Assembly: GCA_039030075.1 (NCBI GenBank)
Contig: JBCCEW010000039.1
Coordinates: 1-44,001 of the forward strand
From: Myxococcota bacterium
Lineage (GTDB): Bacteria; Myxococcota_A; UBA9160; SMWR01
DNA length: 44,001 nucleotides
Reading direction: 5' to 3'
The stretch's first letter is position 1, and the number at the start of each line of letters is the position of its first letter. Both the position numbers and the translations under genes were made by a program. Positions 4,886 to 35,536 of the stretch are shown one piece after another. The notes below the pieces were generated by a model. The model had not been told where the DNA came from, ran no database searches, and saw only the letters and a list, made by a program, of their open reading frames with translations.

Positions 4886-7566
4886 GACGGTTCCTCCTCG
4901 GACAGCTGTTCGCGCCAGCGTGCCAGGAGCGTCAGCGCCTCGACGGGCGTGGTCTCGTCGACCGCGAGCGCGCGCAGCTCCTCGAGGACCGCGTCGGCCT
5001 TCGGGTCCGGGGCCGCCTCCTGGAAGAGTCCCAGCTGCGCGTCGGCCGATTTCGGCTCGGGGGCCAGGCGCGCGCGACCCGAGTTCTCGACGCCCGTCGA
5101 CTCGAGCTGCCCGAGGATCTCTCGCGCGCGCTCGAGCACGCGGCCAGGCAACCCGGCCAGGCGCGCGACCTGGATCCCGTAGGAACGACTCGCCCCGCCT
5201 TCGACCAGGCGGCGCAAGAACACCACCTCGTCGTTCCACTCACGCGCGGCGAAGTGGGCGTTCACGACGCGGGGGTGACTGGCAGGGAGATCGGTGAGCT
5301 CGTGGTAGTGGGTCGCGAAGAGTGTGCGGGCACCGACGCCCGGGGCGTCGTGCAAGTATTCGGCGACGGCCCAGGCGATCGACAGGCCGTCGTAGGTGCT
5401 GGTGCCGCGGCCGATCTCGTCGAGGATCAGCAAGCTGCGCGGCGACGCGTGCGCCAGGATCTCGGCGGTCTCGCGCATCTCGACCATGAAGGTCGACTCG
5501 CCCCGGGCCAGCCGGTCGCTTGCGCCGACGCGCGTGAAGACGCGATCGACCACGCCGATCCGCGCCGACTCGGCGGGAACGTAGGACCCGAGCTGAGCGA
5601 GCAAGACGATCAGCGCCACCTGGCGCAGGTAGGTGCTCTTGCCCGACATGTTGGGGCCGGTGAGAACCACGATCTGGCGCGTCTCCGGGTCGAGCTCGGT
5701 GTCGTTGGGGACGAAGGCCTCGTCGCCACGCGCCACCAGGAGCGGCTCGATCACCGGGTGACGACCGCCGTGGATCTCGAGCTGGGTCGTCTCGTCCACT
5801 TCGGGCCGCGTCCAGCCATCGCGCCGGGCCACCTCCGCCAGTGAGGCCAATGCGTCGAGCTCGGCGACGGCGTCGGCCGCGCGCCCGATCTCGTCCGAGG
5901 CCACCAGCACCGTCTGGCGCAGCTCCTCGAAGAGCTCGCGCTCGAGGGCGGCCGCGCGCTCGGTGCCGCCCCGCACCTCTTGCTCGATCTCGCGCAGGGC
6001 CGGTGTCGTGAAGCGTTCCGCGTTCGCCAGGGTCTGCTTGCGCTCGTAGTCGTCGGGCACGCGATCGAGGTTCGTCTTCGTGACCTCGATCGAGTAGCCG
6101 TGCACCGGGTGGAAGCGGATCTTCAAGTTGGCGATGCCCGTCCGATCGCGTTCGGCCGCCTCGTGCCCCGCGATCCAATCGCGTCCCTTGTGCACACCGC
6201 CGCGCAGGCCATCGAGCTCGGCTCGATAGCCGTCGCGGATGTACCCCGTCTCGAGCGCACCGCGAGAACCGCGCGGGAGCGGCGCGACTTCGTCGGCCAA
6301 CGCAGAGCGCAAGAGCCCCGCCACCTCCGGAAGCGCACGCGGCACCGGGAGCGCCGCCGGCCGCTCTCCTTCGAGGAGCGCATCCCCTTCACCCGCGGTG
6401 TCGGAGACCGCCGCTTCGAGGGCCGGGAGCGCTTCGAGCGACGCGCGCAGCGCCACGGCGTCGCGCGGGGTCGCGCCGGGGCGCGCCACCTTCGAGAGCA
6501 GGCGCTCCAGATCGCGCACGCCAGCGAGCGCGTCTCGCACGCGACCGCGCAACCGATCGCGATCCGCGAGAAACGCCACCGCATCCTGCCGCGCGCGAAT
6601 CCGCTCGGCGTTCACCAGTGGGTAGGCGAGCCAGCGGGCCAGACGACGCGCGCCCAGGGGCGTGCGTGTCTCGTCGATGCGGTCGAGGAGCGTGCGCGCA
6701 CGCGTCCCGTCCTCGCTGTTCTGCAGCAGCTCGAGGTGCGCGCGGGTGGCCTCGTCGAGCACCATCGCGTCGGTCAGGGCGTAGCGCCGCAGCCGCGAGG
6801 TCTGGCCCAGCACGAAGGGCTGATGCCGACCGACGTAGTGCAGGAGCGCCGCCGCCGCGCGGGAGGCCGGGTCCTCGGCATCGGCTTCGAGCCCTTCGGG
6901 ATGAGCGGGCGCCTGCGCCACCTCGTAGTCGACCGGCTCGCAGGGCGAGAAGGCCGCGTCGGGAAGCTCGCGGGCGAGCGCCGGTTCCACCTCGGGTCGG
7001 TCCGCCGGCACCAGCACCTCGCGGGGCCCGAGCCGGACGAGCTCTTCGCAGAGCGCCGCGGGGAGGGTCTCGCCGGAATCCGCCGCGACCTCGGTCGCCC
7101 GCAGGTCCCCGGTGGAGGCATCGAGCACGGCCAGGCCCGCCGGGTTGCCCGGCACGACCGCCGCCAGACACAGCTCCCGACTCGCTTCGATGCTCTGGGG
7201 GTCGCTCGAGAGGCCCGGCGTGACGACTTCGACGACGTCGCGCTTGACCAGCCGCTTCCCGCCCACCGACCGCGCGTCCTCGACCTGCTCGCAGATCGCC
7301 ACCCGATAGCCCTTGGACGCGAGCTTCGCGAGGTGCTGCTCGGCCGCGTGCACCGGGATGCCGCACATGGGCACCGCGTCTTCCTTGTTCTTGTCCCGGG
7401 TGGTGAGCGCGATGTCGAGCAGCGGCGCCGCGATCTCGGCGTCCTTGAGGAACATCTCGTAGAAGTCGCCCATCCGGTAGAACAGGATCTCTTGGGGATA
7501 GCGCGCCTTGATCGCCAGGAACTGGCGCATCATCGGGGTGTCGAGCGCCGACTTCGCCTTGCTCAC
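4882..7566 (-). CDS. mutS: DNA mismatch repair protein MutS
   Basis: Recognises mismatches and small loops and recruits MutL. The product is 894 aa (family ~850-880). The N-terminal mismatch-binding domain carries the F-x-E wedge motif as GDFYEMF (F35, E37). Connector, lever and clamp regions follow. The C-terminal ATPase has Walker A TGPNMSGKST (about 635-645) and Walker B LLILDEIGRGTSTYDG (about 715-730), with the expected helix-turn-helix tail. The GTG start overlaps the upstream lapB stop (GTGA), and its own stop overlaps the amidase GTG. mutL is not in the window. Confidence 0.97.
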   Translation of the reverse strand: MSKAKSALDTPMMRQFLAIKARYPQEILFYRMGDFYEMFLKDAEIAAPLLDIALTTRDKNKEDAVPMCGIPVHAAEQHLAKLASKGYRVAICEQVEDARSVGGKRLVKRDVVEVVTPGLSSDPQSIEASRELCLAAVVPGNPAGLAVLDASTGDLRATEVAADSGETLPAALCEELVRLGPREVLVPADRPEVEPALARELPDAAFSPCEPVDYEVAQAPAHPEGLEADAEDPASRAAAALLHYVGRHQPFVLGQTSRLRRYALTDAMVLDEATRAHLELLQNSEDGTRARTLLDRIDETRTPLGARRLARWLAYPLVNAERIRARQDAVAFLADRDRLRGRVRDALAGVRDLERLLSKVARPGATPRDAVALRASLEALPALEAAVSDTAGEGDALLEGERPAALPVPRALPEVAGLLRSALADEVAPLPRGSRGALETGYIRDGYRAELDGLRGGVHKGRDWIAGHEAAERDRTGIANLKIRFHPVHGYSIEVTKTNLDRVPDDYERKQTLANAERFTTPALREIEQEVRGGTERAAALERELFEELRQTVLVASDEIGRAADAVAELDALASLAEVARRDGWTRPEVDETTQLEIHGGRHPVIEPLLVARGDEAFVPNDTELDPETRQIVVLTGPNMSGKSTYLRQVALIVLLAQLGSYVPAESARIGVVDRVFTRVGASDRLARGESTFMVEMRETAEILAHASPRSLLILDEIGRGTSTYDGLSIAWAVAEYLHDAPGVGARTLFATHYHELTDLPASHPRVVNAHFAAREWNDEVVFLRRLVEGGASRSYGIQVARLAGLPGRVLERAREILGQLESTGVENSGRARLAPEPKSADAQLGLFQEAAPDPKADAVLEELRALAVDETTPVEALTLLARWREQLSEEEPS

Positions 7567-16190: not shown

Positions 16191-16838
16191 ATGCTCGTCC
16201 GCGTGAGCGTGGTCGTGGGATTGACGGGTGGGATCGGTTCCGGGAAGAGCACCGTGGCGCGGATGTTGGCCGCGCTCGGCGCCACCGTGATCGATGCCGA
16301 CGCGATCGTCCACGAGCTCCAGGCGCCGGGCATGCCGATGGTCGCCGAGCTCGCCGAAGCCTTCGGGCCCGGCATCCTCGACTCCGAAGGGGCCCTCGAC
16401 CGCAAGGCTCTCGGCGACATCGTGTTTCGCGACGAGGCGGCGCGCGAACGCCTCGGGCAACTCGTCCACCCGAAGGTCGGCCAGGAGTTCGCACGACGGC
16501 TGCAGGCGGCGCTCTCCGAGGGCGTGCCGCTCGTGGTGCTCGACATCCCGCTGCTCTACGAAGGGCGCGAATCAGGCCGCGGCAGTGGCGCCGCCTCGAG
16601 CGCCGAAGCGGTGATCGTCGTCTGGATCCCCGAATCGGTGCAGATCGAGCGCCAGATGAAACGCGACGGCTGTGATCGCGCCGAAGCCGAACGCCGGGTC
16701 GCGTCCCAACTCTCGCTCGAGCGCAAACGCGAACTCGCCGACCACGTGATCGACAACTCTGGCAGTCTCGAGGCCACCGAAGCGCAGGTGAAGGCGCTCT
16801 ACGCGCGGCTTACCGGAGCGGCGCCTTCAGCTCGCTGA
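16191..16838 (+). CDS. coaE: Dephospho-CoA kinase
   Basis: Final step of coenzyme A synthesis, phosphorylating the ribose 3'-OH of dephospho-CoA. The product is 215 aa, typical for the family. P-loop GLTGGIGSGKST is at 10-21. DADAIVHEL, HPKV and LDIPLLYE match conserved CoaE segments, as does the C-terminal DRAEAERRVASQ lid region. GAGGGGA lies about 10 nt before ATG 16191; an in-frame GTG at 16203 is an alternative. The last 29 nt overlap trpA, which is transcribed toward it. Confidence 0.95.
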   Translation: MLVRVSVVVGLTGGIGSGKSTVARMLAALGATVIDADAIVHELQAPGMPMVAELAEAFGPGILDSEGALDRKALGDIVFRDEAARERLGQLVHPKVGQEFARRLQAALSEGVPLVVLDIPLLYEGRESGRGSGAASSAEAVIVVWIPESVQIERQMKRDGCDRAEAERRVASQLSLERKRELADHVIDNSGSLEATEAQVKALYARLTGAAPSAR

Positions 16839-17604
16839 CGAAGGCCGCAGCCGCGTGCACCGCGGCGTCCGGACTGCTGGCCCGCTCGATGCGATCGACG
16901 ATGGCGCTGCCCACGACGACCCCGTCGGCGAAGCGCGCGACGTCGGCGGCGTGCTCGGGGGTCGACACCCCGAAGCCGACGCAGACCGGGATGTCGCTGT
17001 AGGCGCGCACCGCCTTCACCTCGCCCTCGAGGGACTGGGACATCGCGCCGCGCGCCCCCGTCACGCCGGTGAGGGAGACGAAGTAGAGGAAGCCACCGCT
17101 CTCGGTCGCCAGCTTCTCGAGCCGGTCCGGCTCGGTGGTGGGCGACGCGAGCAGGATCGGGTCGACGTCTCGCGCCCGAAGCGCCGCGTGGAAGCTCTCG
17201 CCCTCTTCCGGCGGCAGGTCGACGATGATCAGGCCATCCACGCCTGCCCCGTGGGCCGCTTCGGCGAACGCCTCTTCCCCCATCGAGACCAGATTGTTCG
17301 CGTAGCCCATCAACACGAGAGGGATCTCGAGATGCGGACGCACGCGCGCGACCAGCTCGAGCACCTTGCGCAGGGTGGTCCCGCCGGCGAGCGCGCGCTC
17401 GCTCGCGCGCTGGATCGTCGGTCCCTCGGCCATCGGGTCGGAGAACGGCACGCCCAGTTCGATCGCGTCGGCACCGGCCTCCGCCATCGCGACGATCAGG
17501 GCCCCCGTGGTCGCGAGGTCCGGATCGCCCGCGGTCACGAACGGCACCAGGGCCTTTTCGCCCCGTGCACGTAGCGTCGCGAAGCGTTCGGAGAGACGGC
17601 TCAT
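16810..17604 (-). CDS. trpA: Tryptophan synthase alpha subunit
   Basis: Cleaves indole-3-glycerol phosphate to indole, which is channelled to TrpB. The product is 264 aa, a TIM barrel of the usual size. Catalytic Glu and Asp lie in DAIELGVPFSDPMAEGP (equivalent to E. coli E49 and D60). The phosphate-binding GFGVSTPEHA and GVVVGSAIVDRIE segments are present. The frame is open further upstream, but ATG 17604, 13 nt after the trpB stop, begins the conserved MSRLSERFATLRARG. It is the last gene of the trp operon and overlaps coaE tail to tail. Confidence 0.96.
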   Translation of the reverse strand: MSRLSERFATLRARGEKALVPFVTAGDPDLATTGALIVAMAEAGADAIELGVPFSDPMAEGPTIQRASERALAGGTTLRKVLELVARVRPHLEIPLVLMGYANNLVSMGEEAFAEAAHGAGVDGLIIVDLPPEEGESFHAALRARDVDPILLASPTTEPDRLEKLATESGGFLYFVSLTGVTGARGAMSQSLEGEVKAVRAYSDIPVCVGFGVSTPEHAADVARFADGVVVGSAIVDRIERASSPDAAVHAAAAFVSELKAPLR

Positions 17605-17617
17605 CGCACGCCCCGCA

Positions 17618-18844
17618 TCACGACACGCTCGCGTCGCGCTGCCGCAGCAGATCGCGCACCTGGGGCGCGTCCTTGTCGCCACGACCGGACAGGTTGATGA
17701 GGATCTGCTGCTCGGGGCCGAGCTGCGGGGCGAGCTTGCGCGCGTAGGCGACCGCGTGGGACGACTCGAGCGCCGGGATCAACCCTTCCGTACGCGACAG
17801 GTAAAGGAAGGAGTCGAGCGCCTCCTCGTCGGTCGCGGTCACGTACTCGGCGCGACCGCTGTCGCGGAGGTGAGCGTGCTCCGGGCCGACGCCCGGGTAG
17901 TCGAGACCCGCCGAGATCGAATGGGCGGGAAATACCTGCCCGTCGTCGTCGAACAGCAGCAGGCTCTTCATCCCGTGCAGGACCCCCGGCTGACCGGCCT
18001 GGAGCGCCGCGCCGTGTCGCCCGGAAGAGAGGCCCTCCCCCGCCGCCTCGACGCCGATCAACCGCACGTCGGTGTCTGCCAGGAACGGATGGAAGATGCC
18101 CATCGCGTTCGACCCCCCACCGATGCAGGCCAGGATGACGTCGGGCAGGCGCCCGGTGATCTCGACCATCTGCGCGCGCGCCTCGATGCCGATCACGCGC
18201 TGGAAGTCGCGCACGATCGTCGGGTACGGGTGCGGTCCCATCACCGAACCGATGCAGTAGTAGGTGTCGCGTACGTTCGTCACCCAGTCGCGCAGGGCTT
18301 CGTTCGTGGCGTCCTTGAGGGTCTGGGAACCGCTCGTCACCGGCCGCACCTCGGCGCCCAGCAGCTCCATGCGGAAGACGTTGAGTGCCTGGCGCTCGAC
18401 GTCTTCCGCGCCCATGTAGACGACGCATTCCTGACCCAGCAGCGCGGCCGCGGTGGCCGTCGCCACCCCGTGCTGGCCGGCCCCGGTCTCGGCGATCACG
18501 CGCGACTTGCCCATGTAGCGGGCGAGCAGGCACTGGCCGAGCACGTTGTTGATCTTGTGCGCTCCCGTGTGGGCGAGATCCTCACGCTTCAGGTAGATGC
18601 GCGCGCCACCGAGGTCCGCGGTCATGCGCTCGGCGAAGCTGATCGGCGTCGGCCGTCCCGCATAGCTGGACAGCAGGGAATCGAGCTCGGACGTGAAGGC
18701 CTCGGTCGCCGTGATCCGGGGGTAGGCCTCGGTGAGTTCGTCGAGTGCGGCGATCAGCGTCTCGGGAACGAAACGCCCGCCGTAGTCTCCGAAGCGCCCG
18801 CGCGCATCCGCCTGACTGTCGAAACCCGGGTCCTTGCCGCTCAT
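17618..18844 (-). CDS. trpB: Tryptophan synthase beta subunit
   Basis: PLP enzyme joining indole and serine to give tryptophan. The product is 408 aa. The Schiff-base Lys is K97 in HTGAHKINN, the phosphate-binding loop is GGGSNAMG, and [15 protein letters not shown] at the N-terminus is typical of TrpB1, the TrpA-partnered form. The ATG overlaps the trpF stop by ATGA. It lies in the complete trpEGDCFBA cluster immediately before trpA. Confidence 0.97.
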
Positions 18845-19470
18845 TCTGCCTCGGGGGCCTCCGCAGTTCGCACCGCCTTCACGAAGCGGGCCAGCTTGTC
18901 GGGATCCTTGCGGTGCTCGGCGCCTTCGACCCCGGACGCCACGTCGACGCCCCAGGGCAGCAGGTCCCCGAGATCCCCCAAGGCCCCTCCCACGTTATCC
19001 GCGTCGAGGCCACCGGCCAGGATGACGTCGTGACCGCTCTCGAGCAGCGCCGAAGCGTCGGCCCAGTTCCAGGCCTTCCCCTGGCCTCCGCCTTGGGTCG
19101 GGTGGTCGAGCAGGAGCATGGTGCCCGGGAACTCGTCGGCCGCCTCGACATCGGCGCCGCGGATCGCCTTGATCACCGGCAGGTCGACGCCCTCCACTTC
19201 TTCTTCCGTCTCTTCGCCGTGAAACTGCAGGCGGTCCAGGTCGACCCGCCGCAGTACCCGATCGATCTCTTCGACCGGCGCGTTCTGGAAGACGCCCACC
19301 AGCTCCGCGCGGCCATCGACCCGGTCGGCGATCGCCGCCGCCGTGTTGAGGTCGAGGCAGCGCGGCGATTGAGGCACGAAGTTCAGACCGATCAGGTCCG
19401 CACCGGCCGCCACCGCCGCTTCGGCATCGTCCGGGTGCACCACGCCGCAGATCTTGATTCGAACGTTCAC
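18841..19470 (-). CDS. trpF: Phosphoribosylanthranilate isomerase
   Basis: Amadori rearrangement of N-(5-phosphoribosyl)anthranilate. The product is 209 aa, a TIM barrel. The catalytic general base Cys is in KICG (C8), and the general acid Asp is in [18 protein letters not shown]. Residues LQFHGEE and [11 protein letters not shown] are family hallmarks. The GTG start overlaps the trpC stop (GTGA), and its stop overlaps the trpB ATG. Confidence 0.95.
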
Positions 19471-20249
19471 GGGGTCCTCCGAAGCCGACGCAGCGCTTCC
19501 GCCACGTCGTCTTGACGCATCAGTGATTCTCCCACGAGAAACGCATGGGCACCGGCCGCCGCGAGCCGATCCCGGTCAGCGACGCTGGCGATCCCACTCT
19601 CGGCCACCAGCACGACGTCCGACGGCACCTTCGGAGCCAGCCGCTCGGTCACGGCGAGGTCGGTCACGAAGGTCCGCAGATCGCGGTTGTTGATGCCCAC
19701 GATCGTCGCGCCCGCCTCGAGCGCCACGTCGAGCTCGGCCTCATCGTGCACTTCGACGAGCGCGGCGAGCCCCAGCGCATGGGCCCGCTTCTGCAACGCC
19801 ACCAGCTCCGCGGGTGTCAGAGCCGCGACGATCAGGAGCACCGCGTCCGCACCGGCGACGCGCGCCTCGTCGATCTGGTAGGCGTCGATCGTGAAGTCCT
19901 TGCGCAGCAGCGGGCACGGTGCCTCGGCGCGTACCTGGGCCAGGTAGTCGAGGTGTCCGCCGAAGTACGGCTCGTCGGTCAGGACCGAGATCGCGGCGGC
20001 GCCACCCTCGGCATAGGCGCGAGCGCAGGCGGCCGGATCGAAGTCGGGGCGGATCTCGCCCTTGCTCGGCGAGCGGCGCTTCACCTCCGCGATCACGCGA
20101 GGTGTGGGCCCAGCCGCGAGGGCTTCCCGGAACGGGCGCGTCGGCTCGTCCATCGCCTCGGCGCGGGCCGCCAACGCATCGCGCGACTCGCGCGCCAGCG
20201 CCGCGTCCAGCTCGACCCGCTTCGTGGCCAGGATCTCATCGAGGATCAC
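19467..20249 (-). CDS. trpC: Indole-3-glycerol phosphate synthase
   Basis: Closes the indole ring in tryptophan synthesis. The product is 260 aa, a monofunctional TIM barrel not fused to TrpF. VIAEVKRRSPSKGEI, SVLTDEPYFGG, LLRKDFTIDAYQI and GINNRDLRTF contain the catalytic Lys and Glu residues. The start is GTG 20249 (begins ILDEILATKR), overlapping the trpD stop as GTGA. An open frame extends upstream but reads antisense-like Arg/Gly-rich sequence, so it is not used. Confidence 0.96.
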   Translation of the reverse strand: MILDEILATKRVELDAALARESRDALAARAEAMDEPTRPFREALAAGPTPRVIAEVKRRSPSKGEIRPDFDPAACARAYAEGGAAAISVLTDEPYFGGHLDYLAQVRAEAPCPLLRKDFTIDAYQIDEARVAGADAVLLIVAALTPAELVALQKRAHALGLAALVEVHDEAELDVALEAGATIVGINNRDLRTFVTDLAVTERLAPKVPSDVVLVAESGIASVADRDRLAAAGAHAFLVGESLMRQDDVAEALRRLRRTP

Positions 20250-21268
20250 GCCCGGCCCTCCGCGGTCGCCGCGACGAGCGCATCGAGCTTGGCGGCGGCG
20301 GCTCCCGAATCGATCGCGGACCCCGCGCTCGCGAAGCCTGCGGCCAGGTCCGACGCCACCCCCGCCACCCACAGCGCAGCCGCCGCGTTCAGCTGGACGA
20401 TGTCGCGGGTGGGTCCCTGCTCCCCGGCCAGCACGGCCCGGGTGATCCCCGCGTTCTCCTGGGCGTCGCCGCCCCGCAGCGCGTCGGCCGAGACGAGAGA
20501 GAGCCCGAGTTCGGTCGGGTCGATCTCGAAGCGGCGCACCTGGCCGTTCTCGAGCAGTGCCGCGTGGGTCTTGTCGGTGAGGGTCACTTCGTCGAGACCG
20601 TCCGCGCCGTGGACGACGAGCGCGCGCTCGGATCCGAGCGCCCCGAGGGCCTCGGCGAGCTTCGGCACGAGCGCCGCGTCATAGACGCCGATCAGCTGGT
20701 GCTTCACGCCCAGCGGATTCAGCAGCGGCCCCATGCAGTTCATCAGGGTGCGGATCCCGAGCTCGGCGCGCACCGGCGCGACGTGGCGCATCGCCGGGTG
20801 CGCCCGACGCGCGAAGAAAGGCGCCAAGCCGACCTTCTCGAGGACGGCGGCAGCCTGCTCGACGTCGAGTTCGATGCCGACGCCCAGCGCCTCGAGCACG
20901 TCGATGCTGCCCGAGCGGCTCGAGGCCGCGCGGTTGCCGTGCTTCGCGACCGGAACGCCGGCTGCCGCGACCACGAAGGCCGCGGTCGTCGAGATGTTGA
21001 AGGTGTCGGCGCCATCCCCGCCGGTGCCGCAGGTGTCGACGGTCCGTGGGTCGAGACACGGCGCGGTGACGGCCGCGGCGCGCAGTGCACGCGCGGCCCC
21101 CACGATCTCGCCGACCGTCTCGCCCTTGGTGCGCAGGGCGACCAGCAGCGCGGCCACGCTCACCGGCGTCGCCTCGCCCGCCGTGATCTCGGCGAACGCG
21201 GCTTCGAGCACCTCCGACGCCAGCTCCTGGCCGGCCACCGCCGTCTCGATCGCGGCGCGCACGCTCAC
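20246..21268 (-). CDS. trpD: Anthranilate phosphoribosyltransferase
   Basis: Transfers phosphoribose from PRPP to anthranilate. The product is 340 aa. Glycine-rich PRPP loop DTCGTGGDGADTFNIST, KHGNRAASSRSGS and the DGLDEVTL metal-binding segment are all present. The start is GTG 21268 (SVRAAIETAV), overlapping the trpG stop as GTGA. It is separate from trpG, unlike the fused enterobacterial gene. Confidence 0.96.
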   Translation of the reverse strand: MSVRAAIETAVAGQELASEVLEAAFAEITAGEATPVSVAALLVALRTKGETVGEIVGAARALRAAAVTAPCLDPRTVDTCGTGGDGADTFNISTTAAFVVAAAGVPVAKHGNRAASSRSGSIDVLEALGVGIELDVEQAAAVLEKVGLAPFFARRAHPAMRHVAPVRAELGIRTLMNCMGPLLNPLGVKHQLIGVYDAALVPKLAEALGALGSERALVVHGADGLDEVTLTDKTHAALLENGQVRRFEIDPTELGLSLVSADALRGGDAQENAGITRAVLAGEQGPTRDIVQLNAAAALWVAGVASDLAAGFASAGSAIDSGAAAAKLDALVAATAEGRA

Positions 21269-21855
21269 GACGCCGCCTCCACGCCGCAGCGATCCAGGAA
21301 GTTGCGCAGCAGGCGCTTCCCACTCTTCGTCAGGATCGACTCGGGGTGGAACTGGACCCCCTCGATGGGGAGCGTCTGATGACGCAGCCCCATGATCTCC
21401 TGGTCGGCCGTCCGCGCGGTGATCACCAGCGCGTCGGGGAGGCTCGCCTCGTCGACCACCAACGAGTGGTAGCGCGTTGCCTCGAGAGGCGACGGCAGGC
21501 CTTCGAACACCCCACTGCCATCGTGGGAGATCTCCGAGACCTTGCCGTGCATGATCGAGCGCGCCCGGCGGACCCGACCGCCGAAGGCCTCGCCGATCGA
21601 CTGGTGCCCGAGACACACGCCGAGCAGCGGCAGCGACGCCTTCGCGCAGGCGTGCACCGTGTCGAGCGAAATCCCCGCGCCCCCGGGCTCCCCGGGCCCC
21701 GGCGAGATCACCACGCCGGCCGGCCCTTCCTCGAGCAGGGTGTCGACGCTGACCGCATCGTTGCGGACGACCCGAACCTCGGCCCCGAGCTCCGAGAGGT
21801 ACTGCACGAGGTTGTAGGTAAAGGAGTCGTAGTTATCGATCATCGCGATGTGCAT
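21265..21855 (-). CDS. trpG: Anthranilate synthase glutaminase component
   Basis: Class I glutamine amidotransferase that supplies ammonia to TrpE; in some bacteria it is shared with PabB. The product is 196 aa. The oxyanion segment SPGPGEP, nucleophile Cys in LLGVCLGHQSIGEAFGG, and the catalytic His-Glu pair in QFHPESI are visible. ATG 21855 begins MHIAMIDNYDSFTYNLVQ, the invariant family N-terminus. It lies 11 nt after trpE. Confidence 0.96.
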   Translation of the reverse strand: MHIAMIDNYDSFTYNLVQYLSELGAEVRVVRNDAVSVDTLLEEGPAGVVISPGPGEPGGAGISLDTVHACAKASLPLLGVCLGHQSIGEAFGGRVRRARSIMHGKVSEISHDGSGVFEGLPSPLEATRYHSLVVDEASLPDALVITARTADQEIMGLRHQTLPIEGVQFHPESILTKSGKRLLRNFLDRCGVEAAS

Positions 21856-21866
21856 GACGCGCTCGC

Positions 21867-23354
21867 TCAGTCGACCCCCTCGCGCGCCATGTCGATCGCC
21901 TCGACCAGCGCGCGCCCCTTGTTGATGGTCTCCTGCCACTCGGCTTCCGGATCCGAGTCGGCCACGACGCCCGCGCCGGCGCGCAGGTAGATCTCGCCGT
22001 CCTTCACGAGCAGCGTGCGGATCGCGATCGCCGTATCCATGTTTCCCGAGTAGTCGATGTAGCCAACGCAGCCGCCGTAGGGCCCGCGCCGCAGCGTCTC
22101 GAGCTCGTCGATGATCTCCATCGCGCGGACCTTCGGCGCGCCCGAGAGCGTGCCCGCTGGGAAGGTGGCGCGGAGCAGGTCCAGCCAATCGAGCCCCTCG
22201 CGCAGCTTCGCCTGGACGTTCGACACGATGTGCATCACGTGGGAGTAGCGCTCGATGATGGCGTACTGGTTCACGTGGACGCTGCCGGTCTCAGCAACGC
22301 GCCCGACGTCGTTGCGGCCGAGGTCGACCAGCATCACGTGCTCGGCGAGCTCCTTCGGATCGGCCAGCAGCTCTTCTTCGAGAGCGAGGTCCTCTTCCGG
22401 CGTGCGTCCCCGCGGCCGCGTGCCCGCGATCGGGCGCACGTCGATGCGTCCGTCCTCGAGCCGCACCAGGATCTCGGGCGACGAGCCGATCAGTACGGGA
22501 CCTTCACAGCGTACGAAGAAGAGATAGGGACTCGGGTTGATCACGCGTAGGTGGCGGTAGATCGTGAAGGGGTCGACCTGGAGCGGGATCCGGAACTGCT
22601 GGGACAGGACGACCTGGAAGATATCGCCCGCCTCGATGTACTCCTTCGCCCGCTTGACGGCGTCGTGGTACTCCTCGCGCTCCATGCTGCGGTGCACGTC
22701 CATGGGCGCGCGCACGGGCCCGGTCCGCGGCTGGGCCGGCAGCGGTTCCCGCAGCGTGTCGACGACGGCGTCGAGCGCCGCGGTCACCTCCCGGTAGGCG
22801 GCGTCGCGGTCGGTGTCCGGGCCGACGGCCACCCAGCGCACGAGGGATGCCGTCTTGCGGACGTTGTCGACCACGACGACGGTCTCGGGCAGCACGAACC
22901 AGAGGTCGGGCATCTCGACTTCGTCGGGGTTCTCGTCTGGCACGGACTCGACGTGCCGGACCCAGTCGTAGCCCACCATGCCGACCGCACCGCCGAGGAA
23001 GCGCGGCAGCGGCGTGCCCTCGATGTGAGCGGGCTCCATCGCCGCGAGCTTCTCGCGCAGCACTTCGAGCGGGTCGCCGGGCGCCGTCACGCGCTCGATG
23101 CCGTCGTCGGTTTCCCACTCCACGTCGTGCCCGCGCGCGCGGAAGATGGCGCGCGCGCCGGTGCCGATGAAGCTGAAGCGTCCCCACTTCTCACCGCCTT
23201 CGACCGACTCGAAGAGGAAGCTCGTGCGGCCGTCATCCAGGCGACGGAACAGGGACAGCGGGGTGTCCATGTCGGCGAGAATCTCGCGCACGACCGGAAC
23301 CCAATTCCCCCTCTTCGCGAGTTCCTCGAAGGATTCTCTGGAGGGGCGAAGCAC
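21867..23354 (-). CDS. trpE: Anthranilate synthase component I
   Basis: Chorismate-utilising enzyme that makes anthranilate with TrpG. The product is 495 aa. The N-terminal FLFESVEGGEKWGRFSFIG corresponds to the Trp-binding LLES feedback site, so feedback inhibition is probably retained. The C-terminal catalytic half has PFTIYRHLRVINPSPY, PIAGTRPRG, LVDLGRNDVGRV and GTLSGAPKVRAMEI. GTG 23354 is chosen: an AGAGG lies about 7 nt upstream and the next residues match the family start. A longer frame would run into lptD. The 70-nt gap to lptD shows no Trp-rich leader or attenuator. Confidence 0.95.
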   Translation of the reverse strand: MLRPSRESFEELAKRGNWVPVVREILADMDTPLSLFRRLDDGRTSFLFESVEGGEKWGRFSFIGTGARAIFRARGHDVEWETDDGIERVTAPGDPLEVLREKLAAMEPAHIEGTPLPRFLGGAVGMVGYDWVRHVESVPDENPDEVEMPDLWFVLPETVVVVDNVRKTASLVRWVAVGPDTDRDAAYREVTAALDAVVDTLREPLPAQPRTGPVRAPMDVHRSMEREEYHDAVKRAKEYIEAGDIFQVVLSQQFRIPLQVDPFTIYRHLRVINPSPYLFFVRCEGPVLIGSSPEILVRLEDGRIDVRPIAGTRPRGRTPEEDLALEEELLADPKELAEHVMLVDLGRNDVGRVAETGSVHVNQYAIIERYSHVMHIVSNVQAKLREGLDWLDLLRATFPAGTLSGAPKVRAMEIIDELETLRRGPYGGCVGYIDYSGNMDTAIAIRTLLVKDGEIYLRAGAGVVADSDPEAEWQETINKGRALVEAIDMAREGVD

Positions 23355-23424
23355 GGAGGGGCCTCTGGGAGGGGCCGCGAGGGCCTGGGGGAGGAGAGCG
23401 CAAAACCCGCGTTCTTTCGAACGG

Positions 23425-25863
23425 TTACCAAAGGCCCCCAAAGCCGTCAAGCAAGCCTTCGCTGCGACGCACCGGGGTGTCACCGAAGCCCACCAGGCGG
23501 TAGACGAACTTCACGTCGACCCCGCGGGTGCGGTCCTCGGAGACCACGATGCCCGCCGCCCAGCACTCGCAGCGGGACAGGTATTCGAGGACGCCCCGGT
23601 TGGTCAGCACCAGGTCGCCCTCGATCGAGTACGCCATCTGGTACCGGAGGTTCCAGCGCGCCGTGAGGTCCAGCGAGACTCCGGCCTCGAGCTGCTGGAT
23701 GTGGTCGATCCGGGAACGCTCGTCGAAACGGTCCCCGGCGCCAAACGCCTCGAACACCTCGGGGATGTCGCGCGCCCAGCGGTACTCGCCCTGCAGCGAG
23801 ACCCCCACCGGATGGCTCCAGGTGGCCGAAGCCAGGGCCTCGTCCACGCGCCCTTCGTCGGGATCGAGGTCGCCGTGGAAGCGCAGGTCGAGCCCCTGCA
23901 GCGGGAACGCGCGGCCCTCGAGGATCAGGGCATCGAAGACTTCCTCCTCGATGTCGAAGAGCCCCTGCAGCGTGACGTCGGCGAGCAGGGACGAGCCGTC
24001 GCTGTCGTTCCTGTAGAAGCGGTTGTCGAACCCGAGCGTCGCGCGCTGGGCGCGCCGCACCCGGTCGGCGTCGTCGCGGACCACGGCGTCGAGGTCGAGG
24101 CCGCGCACCCGATCGAGGGGCACGGCGGTCGCGGGTCGGAACAGGGGATCGCGGCGCTGGGAGCTGCTCGCCACCAGCGCGTAGCCGGCGCGGGGCTCGA
24201 GCACGTGGCGCCAGCCACCGAAGTCGCGACTGAGACGGGTGGTCGCGTCGACGCGAGCGGTCGCGTAGCCGCGCTCCTGGAAGCCGCGCAGCCGACTGTC
24301 GTAGAGGCTCTGCCGCCAGCCCACCTCGGGCACGACCTGGATCCCGCGCCAGTCGAGGGGCGCGGCGATGCGCGGGTGCACGATCACGCGGTGCCCCCGG
24401 TCGGTGAGAGGTTCGCCTTCCTGGAAGCGACCATCGCCCTCCGAGCCACCCGTGGTCGCGAAGTCGTCGGTGTGATTGTCGGGCAGGCCACCCGGCTCGC
24501 GTGCGCCGGTGAGGCCAGCGATCCCGTTGGGCAGCGCGTCGATACCGGTGTCGAGGAAGAGCCCGCCCGGTCCGAGCACGGCGCTCGGCAGCTCGCCCTC
24601 GGCCCGCTCGCGGGCCTCGAACCACGCGTAGTCGACGTCGACGGAAGGCACCAGGAAGGGCGCACCGGGCAGCGCCACCGGCAAGAGGTCGACGCGAGCG
24701 GTGGGCCAGCGCTGCAACACGAAGCGATCGCGATCCAGGTCGTCGGGGCTCTGCAGGTCGTCGACGAACTGGGCGCCGACCGAGACCCCGAGCGCGTCGA
24801 GTTCCCCGAACCCCCGACCGAGCCGCGCTTCGGAACGCAGGTAGCGGTCCGAGCGGCGGCTGTTCAACTCGTCGAAATCGAAGGGCACCTGGTTGTCCGA
24901 CGCGAAGCCGAAGTCGGTCTCGAAGCGAAGGTCGCCGGGCAGCTTCCAGTCGTGCTCGCCCGACAGGCTCCAGCGGTTGCGGCCGAAGGGCTGCGCCGCC
25001 GTCTTGGCGTCGATGTCCTGGTCGCGGGTGAAGGCGGCGAGCACCTCGCCGCTCGACTCCTGACTCCAGGCGTAGTCGAAGAAGGCCGCCCCGCCGGCGC
25101 CCCGCTCGGTCGAGTAACGCGGGGTCAGGATGAGACCTGCCTCGTCGGCGATCGCCCAGAAGAAGGGCAGTCCGGCCGAGAAGCCGTTGAAGCTGCTGAA
25201 GGAGAACTCCGGGAAGAGCAGGCCCGACTGGCGCTCGGTCTTCACCGGGAACGCCAACCACGGGATCCAGGCCACGGGCACGCCGAGGATCTCGACGCTC
25301 GCGTTCTTCGCCGTGGCGTAGCCCTCGATCTGGAGGTCGGCCTCTTCCGCCGAGATCTCCCAGGGCACCCGCTCCTCCGGATCGGGACAACGACAGGTGG
25401 TGAAGCGGCCCTCGCGGAACCGGTAGGTGTCCGGTCCGGTCTTCTCGATCTCGGCGGCACCGGCGCGGAAGGGGGTGCTCTCGGCCTCCAAGGCGCCGCC
25501 GTAGAGGGTACCCGCGACCGTATCGAGTTCGAAGGCGACGAAGTCGGCGGTGACCACGTCTTCGCCATCGGCGAGCGACACGTTTCCGCTCGCCACGCCA
25601 AGGCCGGTGGTGCGGTTGAAGGCCGCCCAATCCGCTCGCAGGGTGCGCCCGTGCTGCACGATCTTCACGCGGCCACGCGCCACGTAGAGCTCGCGCTCCA
25701 TCTCGTAGGAGAGCGCGTCGGCGGTCAGCTCGAAGGGCTCGTTGCGGAGCTCTTCCGGGAGGTCTGCGACCGGCTGGGCACCCGCCGGGACCGCCGCCAG
25801 GGCCGCGATCCAAACACCCACGGCGCAGACTCCCGCGATCCAGACACGCACTTGCCGCGGCAT
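23425..25863 (-). CDS. lptD: LPS-assembly outer membrane protein LptD (OstA)
   Basis: Outer membrane translocon that inserts LPS, normally plugged by LptE. The product is 812 aa. It has a signal peptide ending near AGA-Q30, an N-terminal LptA/OstA-like beta-jellyroll (about 43-200: FELTADALSYEMERE, RGRVKIVQHG), then a large beta-barrel rich in alternating aromatic and charged strands. Two cysteine pairs are visible, CRC (157/159) and CEC (765/767). They match the interdomain disulfides known from E. coli LptD. The stop TAA lies 70 nt before trpE, so lptD is probably co-transcribed with the trp genes. Confidence 0.93.
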   Translation of the reverse strand: MPRQVRVWIAGVCAVGVWIAALAAVPAGAQPVADLPEELRNEPFELTADALSYEMERELYVARGRVKIVQHGRTLRADWAAFNRTTGLGVASGNVSLADGEDVVTADFVAFELDTVAGTLYGGALEAESTPFRAGAAEIEKTGPDTYRFREGRFTTCRCPDPEERVPWEISAEEADLQIEGYATAKNASVEILGVPVAWIPWLAFPVKTERQSGLLFPEFSFSSFNGFSAGLPFFWAIADEAGLILTPRYSTERGAGGAAFFDYAWSQESSGEVLAAFTRDQDIDAKTAAQPFGRNRWSLSGEHDWKLPGDLRFETDFGFASDNQVPFDFDELNSRRSDRYLRSEARLGRGFGELDALGVSVGAQFVDDLQSPDDLDRDRFVLQRWPTARVDLLPVALPGAPFLVPSVDVDYAWFEARERAEGELPSAVLGPGGLFLDTGIDALPNGIAGLTGAREPGGLPDNHTDDFATTGGSEGDGRFQEGEPLTDRGHRVIVHPRIAAPLDWRGIQVVPEVGWRQSLYDSRLRGFQERGYATARVDATTRLSRDFGGWRHVLEPRAGYALVASSSQRRDPLFRPATAVPLDRVRGLDLDAVVRDDADRVRRAQRATLGFDNRFYRNDSDGSSLLADVTLQGLFDIEEEVFDALILEGRAFPLQGLDLRFHGDLDPDEGRVDEALASATWSHPVGVSLQGEYRWARDIPEVFEAFGAGDRFDERSRIDHIQQLEAGVSLDLTARWNLRYQMAYSIEGDLVLTNRGVLEYLSRCECWAAGIVVSEDRTRGVDVKFVYRLVGFGDTPVRRSEGLLDGFGGLW

Positions 25864-32342: not shown

Positions 32343-33410
32343 TCAGCCCGACAGCTGGCCCAGGGCCCAACGCGCGTGCTCGGCGAGAACCGCATCGTCG
32401 CTCTGCAGATGGCGCTCGATCCACGGTCGCAGCTCCGGATCACGCGTGTTCCCGGCCGCGACCAGCGCGTTGCGCACGAGCCCCTGATAGCGGGTGCGGC
32501 GGAGCGCCGTCTTGCGGGTCGCCTCGCGCCAGCGCTCCTCGTCGAGTCCGAGCACCCAGGCCAGGGTGGGCGCCTGCCAGTCGGGACGCGGTGCGATCCG
32601 CGCGCGCAGTCCGTGGGGGTCCGGGGGAATCGGCCGTCGCTCGCGCTGGTTCCACGGACACACCTCCTGGCAGAGGTCGCAGCCGAAGCCCCAGTCGCCC
32701 TGCCCTGCGCGCATCGTTTCGGGGATCGGACCGCGCAATTCGATCGTGGTGTACGAGATGCAGCGCGTGGCATCGAGGACGTAGGGCTCGGGAAAGGCGT
32801 CGGTGGGACACGCATCGAGACACGCCCGACAGCTGCCGCAGTGGTCGGGCTCCGGCTCGCCGGCGGGCAGCCACCAATCGGTGAGGATCGCTCCCAGGAA
32901 GAGGTACGAACCGAGGCGCGGATGGATCAGGCAGGTGTTCTTGCCGACCCAACCCAGCCCTGCCGCCGCCGCATGGGCCCGCTCCTGCACCGGCCCCGTG
33001 TCGACGTAGCCGCGCGTGCGCACCGGCCGATCGGCGAGCGTCGGCAAGCCGGCCTCGAACGCCCGCAGGCGATCCACGAGCACGTCGTGGTAGTCGTCGC
33101 CGCCCGCGTAGCGCGCCACGCGAAACGGCGCGGCGTCGGCCGACGGACGCTCGCCCGGGTCGTATACGAAGCCCACGGCGATGACGCTCTGGGCCCGTTC
33201 GAGCAGTCGCCGCGGATCCTCGCGCTCCTCCACCCGGCGCCCGATGTAGTGCATCTCGCCGGCGTAGCCGCGCGCGAGCCACTCGCGAAGGAAGCGGGTC
33301 TGATCCGTGGGCTCGGCGGCTGCGATGCCGACCAGATCGAACCCGAGCGAGAGCCCGAGAGCTTCGACGCGGGCGGCGTCGGCGGGAGTGCCTCGGGGCG
33401 CTTCGCTCAC
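32343..33410 (-). CDS. queG: Epoxyqueuosine reductase
   Basis: Cobalamin and Fe-S enzyme for the last step of queuosine tRNA modification. The product is 355 aa. The cobalamin domain carries the conserved VDTGPVQER (D137). Two 4Fe-4S clusters are formed by CGSCRACLDACP (191-202) and CDLCQEVCPWNQ (244-255), plus C217 in RCISY. The C-terminal HEAT-like helices are present. The start is GTG 33410 with a poor ribosome binding site. It lies 31 nt downstream of the exosortase gene, with no functional link implied. Confidence 0.95.
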   Translation of the reverse strand: MSEAPRGTPADAARVEALGLSLGFDLVGIAAAEPTDQTRFLREWLARGYAGEMHYIGRRVEEREDPRRLLERAQSVIAVGFVYDPGERPSADAAPFRVARYAGGDDYHDVLVDRLRAFEAGLPTLADRPVRTRGYVDTGPVQERAHAAAAGLGWVGKNTCLIHPRLGSYLFLGAILTDWWLPAGEPEPDHCGSCRACLDACPTDAFPEPYVLDATRCISYTTIELRGPIPETMRAGQGDWGFGCDLCQEVCPWNQRERRPIPPDPHGLRARIAPRPDWQAPTLAWVLGLDEERWREATRKTALRRTRYQGLVRNALVAAGNTRDPELRPWIERHLQSDDAVLAEHARWALGQLSG

Positions 33411-33441: not shown

Positions 33442-34293
33442 TCAAGCGGTGGCGGGCGGTGGCGCGATCGGGTCGCCGTCTTCGGTGAGCCGACGCAGCA
33501 GGCTGCCGAAGGCGATCACCAGCACCACGGCGAAGGCCGAAGTGAGCAGCCCCGCCATGTCGTGGAGCGTCCCGGTGGTGGCCCGCTCGATCCCCACCGC
33601 ATTGGCTGCGTAGACCGTCACGATCACGCGGATCGCGTTGCCGAGCAGCGCTGCCGGGACCACCGCGAGCACGATCGCCGCGCGACGCCAGAACACCTCG
33701 TCGGTGAAGCGCGCCAACAGGAACCCGATCGGGATCAAGCTGATCAGCGACGTGATCCCACTGCACGCCTCGGCCACGAAGAGCGAGCCGCCACCCGGCA
33801 GCCGGATGACGTTGCCGTCGCGCAGCACGGGCACGTCGAAGGCGTGGAGCACCGCCACCGCAGCCTGACTGGCGATCGTCTGCAGACTCACGATCAGCGG
33901 CGTCACCCAGCTGGTGGGCAGCGGGATCATGAACAGCAGGAAGCCGAGCGGGAAGGCGAAGGTGCGCAGGACACCCGGGCCGCCGCGGAACATCACGAGA
34001 CAAGTCACCGCCGCCACGAGCGCGAGGCCCTGGAGGCTCACCTGGCCGATCAAGAGGCCGAAGGCGTAGAGCCCGAGCGACAACCCGAGCCCAGCCAGGG
34101 CCGGCAGATAGCGCTGACTCGGCCCGAGCTTCTTCCAGAGCGGCTGCCCCGAGGCCAAGGCGACCAAGGGCACCAGGAAGCCGTGGTTGTAGTAGTCGTG
34201 GGCCTGCCAGTGTTCGGCCAGGCCCATGACGGCCGGGGCGAAGATGACCGCCAGCCCGATCCAGAGGACCGTCTCGAGTGTGAAGCGCTGCAT
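33442..34293 (-). CDS. Exosortase / archaeosortase family protein
   Basis: Integral membrane cysteine transpeptidase-like enzyme that processes PEP-CTERM-type sorted proteins. The 283-aa product has about eight hydrophobic helices. The catalytic triad is visible: C177 in VAEACSGI, R222 in LGNAIRV and H244 in TLHDMAG. ATG 34293 is chosen because the upstream frame is Arg-rich with no membrane character. No EpsI-like domain, PEP-CTERM substrate or exopolysaccharide cluster accompanies it here. It is divergent from the small PqqA-like gene. Confidence 0.92.
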   Translation of the reverse strand: MQRFTLETVLWIGLAVIFAPAVMGLAEHWQAHDYYNHGFLVPLVALASGQPLWKKLGPSQRYLPALAGLGLSLGLYAFGLLIGQVSLQGLALVAAVTCLVMFRGGPGVLRTFAFPLGFLLFMIPLPTSWVTPLIVSLQTIASQAAVAVLHAFDVPVLRDGNVIRLPGGGSLFVAEACSGITSLISLIPIGFLLARFTDEVFWRRAAIVLAVVPAALLGNAIRVIVTVYAANAVGIERATTGTLHDMAGLLTSAFAVVLVIAFGSLLRRLTEDGDPIAPPPATA

Positions 34294-34458
34294 GGGTGCC
34301 TGTGTGGGTAGGCGCTCGGGCCGCCGAAAGGTACATCGGTCTCGCGCTCGGCCCGCGGGAGCGGTAAAGGCGCGGGCGAAACAGGCCCGACGGGAGTTCC
34401 GGCCACCCCACCTCACCCCCCTCGCCCCGGCGCCCCGCGAAGTGCTAATTTTCCGGCC

Positions 34459-34605
34459 ATGGCAGCTTCCGACCCGACTCTCGACTCGATCGCTCAGCCC
34501 GAACCGGCACCGGCCGAAGCGCGCTACGAGCCGCCGCGCTTCGACGTGATCTGCCTGGCCTGCGAGATCTCGGCCTACGCGCCCGACGGCGACCCGCTCT
34601 TCTAG
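34459..34605 (+). CDS. PqqA-like RiPP precursor peptide
   Basis: A 48-codon gene with ATG at 34459 and TAG at 34603. The Pro/Ala-rich leader (1-22) is followed by the core EPPRFDVICLACEISAYAP. The core aligns by eye with PqqA peptides: a Pro, then I-C-x-x-x-E-[IV]-[ST]-x-Y, ending in a short acidic tail with a terminal Phe. E36 and Y40 have exactly the E-x-x-x-Y spacing of the residues that PqqE crosslinks to build pyrroloquinoline quinone. PqqA is usually 23-39 aa, so this one is longer. No ribosome binding site stands out, and no pqqB-F genes lie in the window. It is either an orphan pqqA or a precursor of a related peptide-derived cofactor. Confidence 0.7.
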   Translation: MAASDPTLDSIAQPEPAPAEARYEPPRFDVICLACEISAYAPDGDPLF

Positions 34606-34792
34606 CGGCGTACCGCGACGCGCATCCGATGTGCCGCCCGGCTCCCTCCCCGGTCCGAGCGGCGGGTAGCGACGTGGGTCTGGCTGAGGGGCCCTCCCCC
34701 CAAACCCGAGCCGCCGTTCGGTCGATGAGACACCCGGGTGGCACTCGCGCGGAACACCGCATCGGGACGCCGGCCCGGAAGGGGTGACCCAG

Positions 34793-35536
34793 GTGGCGGA
34801 ACGCCAGGCCGGATTCTGGAAGACGCTGCGCGAAGCGCTGCGGCGCTACTTCGTCGCCGGCATCCTCGCCTTCGCGCCGCTCGCCATCACGATCTGGGCA
34901 ATCGCCTGGATCATCCAGCGTCTCGACAATTTGCTGCTCCCCACCGTGCTCTCCTGGGTCTTCCCGAACCTGGAGGATCCGCCGCGCATTCCGCTGGTGG
35001 GCGCCCTCTTCACGCTCGTCGTGATCCTGTTGATGGGCGTGGTGGCCCGGCACCTGTTCGGCGGTGAGTTCATCCGCGCCTGGGAGCGCCTGCTCTCGCG
35101 CGTCCCGGTGGCGCGGAACATCTATGCCGGGGTGAAGCAGCTCTTCGAAGCGATCTTCCAGCGCAACGAGTCGCGCTTCAACCGCGTCGTGCTGATCGAG
35201 TACCCGCGCCGCGGCATCTACGCCATCGCCTTCACCACCGGCGACGCGCGGGGCACCGTCCAGGAGATCACCGAAGAGCGCGTCATCAACTGCTTCCTGC
35301 CGACGACACCGAACCCGACCTCCGGGTTCTACCTGCTGGTGCCCGAGTCACAGGTGCGAGACGTGGACCTGACCGTCGAGGACGCCTTCAAGCTCGTGAT
35401 GTCGGCAGGCCTGGTGACGCCCGAGAACGCCAATCAGATCCCGCTCCCGCTTTCGGACGCGGGATCGGAGCCGGCTATCGAGGCAACGGTGCCGACGTCA
35501 CCCGCGTCACCAGCGCGCGAAGGCCGGGGTGGCTGA
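34793..35536 (+). CDS. DUF502 membrane protein
   Basis: 247-aa protein of the DUF502 family (function unknown). Two transmembrane helices (about 21-42 and 68-86) are followed by a cytoplasmic or periplasmic domain containing VPVARNIYAGVKQLFEAIF, PRRGIYAIAFTTG and FLPTTPNPTSGFYLLVPE, all characteristic of the family. GTG 34793 has AAGGGG 8 nt upstream; GTG 34784 is an alternative three codons longer. The 3' end overlaps the convergent cvpA-like gene by 62 nt. Confidence 0.87.
   Translation: MAERQAGFWKTLREALRRYFVAGILAFAPLAITIWAIAWIIQRLDNLLLPTVLSWVFPNLEDPPRIPLVGALFTLVVILLMGVVARHLFGGEFIRAWERLLSRVPVARNIYAGVKQLFEAIFQRNESRFNRVVLIEYPRRGIYAIAFTTGDARGTVQEITEERVINCFLPTTPNPTSGFYLLVPESQVRDVDLTVEDAFKLVMSAGLVTPENANQIPLPLSDAGSEPAIEATVPTSPASPAREGRGG

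Follow-up and report, generated by a model that had tools for sequence, protein, structure and literature searches.

Pyrroloquinoline quinone (PQQ), a vitamin-like bacterial cofactor, is made from a short precursor peptide, PqqA, whose gene usually, though not universally, lies next to pqqB-E. In the described pathway PqqD presents PqqA to PqqE, PqqE joins a glutamate and a tyrosine of the peptide, a peptidase frees the pair, and PqqC is among the enzymes that finish the cofactor (PMC2294125, PMC12997753). Both the Glu and the Tyr are needed in PqqA (PMC2294125). A published search for pqq genes used those of Pseudomonas aeruginosa together with cluster software (PMC12124388). Our own search for a pqqA in Myxococcota found none in the literature covered.

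Here we followed up a small gene in a stretch of 44,001 nucleotides (the window) from a member of the Myxococcota, for which a sequence-only reading had offered two possibilities: that it is a genuine pqqA sited apart from pqqBCDE, or that it encodes the precursor of a PqqE-like RiPP cofactor not yet described. As judged from sequence comparisons, the gene is very probably a divergent pqqA located in trans, which occupies an old locus, mostly upstream of a DUF502 gene, and has a form particular to its order.

The peptide gene and its setting

The window corresponds to one contig (C39) of an assembly of 5.76 Mb in 55 contigs, estimated to be 95% complete. Its features are listed in Table 1. The frame and its translation (MAASDPTLDSIAQPEPAPAEARYEPPRFDVICLACEISAYAPDGDPLF) were re-derived and are exactly as first described, with Glu36 (codon 34564-34566) and Tyr40 (codon 34576-34578), the putative crosslink residues, at the spacing noted by the sequence-only reading. 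The EISAY at 34564 is the sole occurrence of E-[IVL]-[STN]-x-Y in the six frames of the whole window.

Table 1. Features of the peptide locus, with window coordinates
Feature	Position	Strand	Remarks
queG	32343..33410	-	TIGR00276, 330 bits; conserved neighbourhood
Exosortase gene	33442..34293	-	Divergent upstream neighbour; TIGR02602, 139.6 bits (cut-off 105.55)
Extended -10 promoter-like element, TGC-TAATTT (TGCTAATTT)	34443..34451	+	Hexamer starts 13 bases before the ATG
pqqA-like precursor peptide gene	34459..34605	+	ATG at 34459; 48 codons; stop ends at 34605
Conserved core and C-terminal tail, P-x4-I-x-L-x-C-E-I-[ST]-x-Y-APD-x-D-x-PLF	34531..34602	+	30 intact homologues
DUF502 membrane protein gene (presumed)	34784..35536	+	Downstream neighbour, same strand

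Of the two flanking genes named in the sequence-only reading, the exosortase is borne out by its curated model, while the DUF502 name is that reading's own and is kept here as an assumption. The exosortase is not thought to be more than a neighbour or to have any part in the role of the peptide. In many relatives queG lies within 9 kb of the peptide, which indicates that the locus is ancestral. A DUF502 homologue follows on the same strand, at most 600 bases downstream, in 21 of the 35 peptide loci of the order, and homologues of queG, the exosortase or CvpA are often nearby even where DUF502 does not follow. Since each of the two, DUF502 and the peptide, also occurs in genomes that lack the other, we rejected DUF502 as a functional partner. 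Elsewhere in the window a tryptophan biosynthesis cluster (16810-23483, minus strand) was recognised by eye from the translations; it is followed by an LptD-like gene (23425-25863), and the arrangement is ordinary.

The promoter-like element recurs in the order: in 20 of 30 homologues TGCTA precedes the start codon by 15-17 bases, against a mean of 0.24 and a maximum of 3 in 2000 trials with shuffled upstream sequences. With this spacing transcription would begin at the ATG or close to it, so that the peptide mRNA is probably leaderless and made from a promoter of its own. In some relatives the motif lies 32-36 bases upstream, and several of these have a Shine-Dalgarno-like GGAG before the start.

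No pqq biosynthesis gene lies beside the peptide, as originally noted; this holds locally, whereas elsewhere in the genome all four proteins that were to be searched for, PqqB, PqqC, PqqD and PqqE, score over cut-off. Contig C4 carries pqqB (TIGR02108, 315 bits, cut-off 245), a pqqCD fusion (TIGR02111, 282 bits, cut-off 240; TIGR03859, 47.9 bits, cut-off 46) and pqqE (TIGR02109, 453 bits, cut-off 381), overlapping or nearly so, and the CxxxCxxC motif of the PqqE translation reads CPLRCVYC. An acyl-CoA dehydrogenase-like gene (named by eye) precedes and overlaps pqqB. A gene for an M50-type metalloprotease-like membrane protein, also recognised by eye, runs opposite to pqqE and overlaps its 3' end (L015:8564-9253, minus strand). 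The 15 kb surrounding the cluster showed no pqqA-like frame. Two PQQ-dependent alcohol dehydrogenases score over cut-off, with three more related proteins below it; no PqqF over cut-off was found in the genome, only weaker M16-type matches, and other radical SAM genes are also present. The separation recurs across the order: none of the 35 peptide loci contains pqqB, pqqCD or pqqE, within flanking sequence that varies between tens of bases and about 9 kb on each side. In G017, a genome assembled as a single contig, about 180 kb separate the peptide from pqqE, assuming that the contig is circular.

Against Pfam and NCBIfam the window peptide gave no match, neither to PF08042, the model suggested for checking it, nor to TIGR02107. 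A PF08042 search of its genome gave none either, but carries no weight because the control genomes gave none as well. Two known PqqA sequences, used as positive controls, pass both models. Some homologues come close to the TIGR02107 cut-off of 20 with 14-17 bits (best 17.2), the match covering precisely the stretch expected. We regard a score over cut-off as an operational rather than a biological criterion for PqqA. These sub-threshold scores, together with a site away from where searches for pqq operons look, explain why annotation misses the gene.

Conservation and co-occurrence with PqqE

A single-sequence search of 17 genomes of the family yielded true homologues in seven, including the host genome; weak matches in three others (G006, G007 and G009) belonged to an unrelated, secreted-looking protein and were rejected. 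A profile built from the seven was run on 80 genomes of the order (one of them, L083, named UBA9160) and matched in 40 at E <= 3.4e-6, 39 of these at E <= 3.3e-10, with values down to 5e-25. The homologues share the same C-terminal 27 residues, and one of the 40 (G011) is a relic. No convincing member was found outside the order among 379 sampled genomes of the phylum (order included), where weak matches had E values of 0.001-0.01 and several contained internal stops.

P26, L33, C35, E36, Y40, P46 and L47 are invariant in the 30 intact homologues, and A41, P42, D43 and F48 are kept in at least 28 of them. The cysteine first described as extra, C35, is thus the invariant one, and C32, which had been taken for the conserved cysteine, is Ser in half of the homologues. 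A typical core reads W-x-x-P-x-[FV]-E-V-I-x-L-x-C-E-I-T-x-Y, which, at the level of sequence, is the same arrangement as in known PqqA. Lengths range from about 37 to 56 amino acids in the set, the N-terminal 20-25 residues being variable. In the comparison with the nearest relative, the core has a pN/pS of 0.18 and the N-terminal part one of 0.63; when all pairs are pooled, these become 0.51, probably inflated by saturation, and 0.95. Constraint on the protein sequence therefore appears to act on the core and hardly at all on the first 20-25 residues. With homologues in half of the genomes and a core under purifying selection, the frame is genuine.

The peptide and PqqE (counted if over cut-off, plus one truncated copy in G061) occur together in 37 of the 80 genomes, PqqE alone in 6, the peptide alone in 3 and neither in 34 (Fisher p = 9e-13). 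With each genus counted once, the numbers are 26, 2, 2 and 14 (p = 1e-7); both p-values ignore the kinship of the genomes. Genomes that lack both are spread over several families, suggesting that loss occurred repeatedly.

Most of the exceptions can be accounted for. Five of the PqqE-only genomes (G010, G055, G061, G070 and G074) lack both the DUF502 gene and a close copy of the sulfotransferase gene often found immediately upstream of the peptide, whereas relatives have them, which indicates that the pqqA locus is missing from these assemblies. For G055 and G061 (genus g34) only the sulfotransferase test counts, because DUF502 is not beside the peptide even in their relatives. In the sixth, G034, the DUF502 locus is assembled without the peptide; this is the sole PqqE-bearing genome with a checked, assembled DUF502 locus but no trans copy. 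It has a pqqA-like frame of its own, AWRKPVVEETACGCEINCYA, just upstream of pqqE (L094, around 5114-5250), which scores 18.5 bits with TIGR02107, just under the cut-off. On the simplest reading, pqqA would have been split from pqqBCDE once, ancestrally, at the base of the order, and G034 would have acquired or kept a different copy in cis. Among genomes with the peptide only, G044 has PqqB, so that its PqqE is probably missing from the assembly. G067 (a 93% complete MAG) has an intact peptide, with neither PqqE nor PqqB found, and is an exception to the co-occurrence. Its peptide appears at the ends of two contigs (C344:21-134 and C200:2956-3060), probably one locus split by assembly.

Two genomes without PqqE retain decayed copies. 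In G011, the third of the peptide-only genomes, which also lacks PqqB, a relic adjoins DUF502 with its start codon and promoter motif kept; it reads CEITAHAPDGNDPLF, with the Tyr replaced by His. In G003, which has kept PqqB, a remnant at the same place reads DCVVTADML, both Glu and Tyr being gone; as the match is weak (E about 1e-4), this reading rests on position and pattern.

Some further observations concern PqqB. It scores over cut-off without a PqqE over cut-off in G003, G033, G064, G066, G069 and G076, possibly reflecting another use of PqqB, decaying pathways or incomplete assemblies. In genus g34 (G054, G055, G056, G059, G060, G061 and G062) each genome has two PqqB homologues, one that scores about 400 bits and lies apart from pqqE, the other scoring about 170-200 bits beside it (for example G059:C16:111802-112710 and G059:C9:42074-42955).

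Proposed route and alternative readings

The reading as a true pqqA draws on the conservation of Glu36 and Tyr40, the co-occurrence with PqqE, the lack of another pqqA in the PQQ cluster, and the loss of Tyr, or of Glu and Tyr, in two PqqE-less genomes. Neither of the findings named beforehand as grounds for giving it up, a frame or a Glu36/Tyr40 pair left unconserved in related genomes or a genome devoid of PqqD/PqqE-like genes, was obtained, and the PQQ-dependent dehydrogenases that were to be looked for are present. The peptide would be expressed from its own promoter, far from pqqB-pqqCD-pqqE. On the model of known PQQ biosynthesis, binding of the peptide would fall to the PqqD domain of the PqqCD fusion and the joining of the Glu36 and Tyr40 side chains to PqqE; once a peptidase had released the joined pair, PqqB and PqqC would complete PQQ for the dehydrogenases of the genome. 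With a bona fide PqqE adjoining PqqB and PqqCD as the radical SAM partner, the second of the original proposals is unneeded; we are confident that no new RiPP cofactor has to be invoked and that the predicted function is the ordinary one of PQQ precursor. Against PqqA we count the missing matches to PF08042 and TIGR02107, the greater length, the conserved tail, genome G067 and the lack of a clear PqqF.

Some of these points would suit a precursor of some other RiPP or cofactor, as yet undescribed, with maturation by this PqqE-type enzyme or a further radical SAM enzyme: the unusual tail APD-x-D-x-PLF, the invariant Cys35 beside the Glu, the sub-threshold scores with curated PqqA models and the further radical SAM genes of the genome. 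We nevertheless consider it very unlikely, as the peptide co-varies with PqqE itself, which belongs with PqqB and PqqCD to a linked, full PQQ set, PQQ-dependent dehydrogenases are present, and the PQQ cluster would otherwise be without a precursor; no maturase distinct from PqqE emerged from the co-variation analysis, which profiled PqqE among the radical SAM families. As a guess, the tail may be a recognition element for PqqD/PqqE or for a peptidase. It is improbable that Cys35 and the PLF tail mark an altered maturation, such as an extra linkage made by PqqE or a dedicated protease that reads the tail, so that a variant of PQQ or a novel step of release would result.

The position directly upstream of DUF502 in 21 of 35 loci could also mean that the frame belongs to the DUF502 transcript, for instance as a regulatory upstream ORF, its likeness to PqqA being secondary. 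The frame, however, tracks PqqE rather than DUF502: it persists without DUF502 in other genomes, and PqqE-less genomes lack it upstream of DUF502, save for the two decayed copies. Its conservation, moreover, is at the amino-acid rather than the translational level, and we give this explanation scarcely any credence. Spurious frames are many in the window, yet a chance open frame in GC-rich sequence is refuted by the order-wide conservation, the purifying selection and the conserved promoter spacing, and its probability is practically nil.

Significance and comparison with known systems

If the gene is a pqqA, probable PQQ producers would be scored as lacking a precursor by any survey that expects pqqA next to pqqBCDE or depends on standard models. 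The family widens the PqqA profile and fills a gap in an order of uncultured bacteria, in which a RiPP precursor would have remained stably apart from its maturation genes. Its 30 diverse natural substrates with a conserved C-terminal tail could serve studies of PqqD/PqqE recognition and peptide release, and the pseudogene relics point independently to Glu and Tyr.

Like PqqA of Klebsiella pneumoniae and Methylorubrum extorquens (PF08042/TIGR02107), the peptides of the order are short, have an aromatic-x-x-P, a hydrophobic stretch and Glu-[IV]-[ST]-x-Tyr near the C-terminus, and occur with PqqB, PqqC, PqqD, PqqE and PQQ dehydrogenases. The window peptide is indeed longer than usual, as first noted, exceeding the 23-39 amino acids of the PqqA peptides in PMC2294125; the order's peptides as a group, with their variable N-terminus, have about 37-56 amino acids compared with 23-29 in these known PqqA. 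They add the APD-x-D-x-PLF tail and the invariant Cys before the Glu; the gene falls below model cut-offs, lies away from pqqBCDE and is probably transcribed as a leaderless mRNA. The cis gene of G034 has the same core pattern, with Cys-Glu and Tyr, but adjoins pqqE and lacks the PLF tail. MftA and other precursors of radical SAM/SPASM RiPPs resemble the order's peptides in being small and in going with a PqqE-like radical SAM enzyme and a PqqD-type recognition domain. Unlike in the MftA system, the partner here is PqqE (89 bits with the mycofactocin maturase model against 453 with that for PqqE), and the motif is Glu-x3-Tyr rather than the MftA C-terminus.
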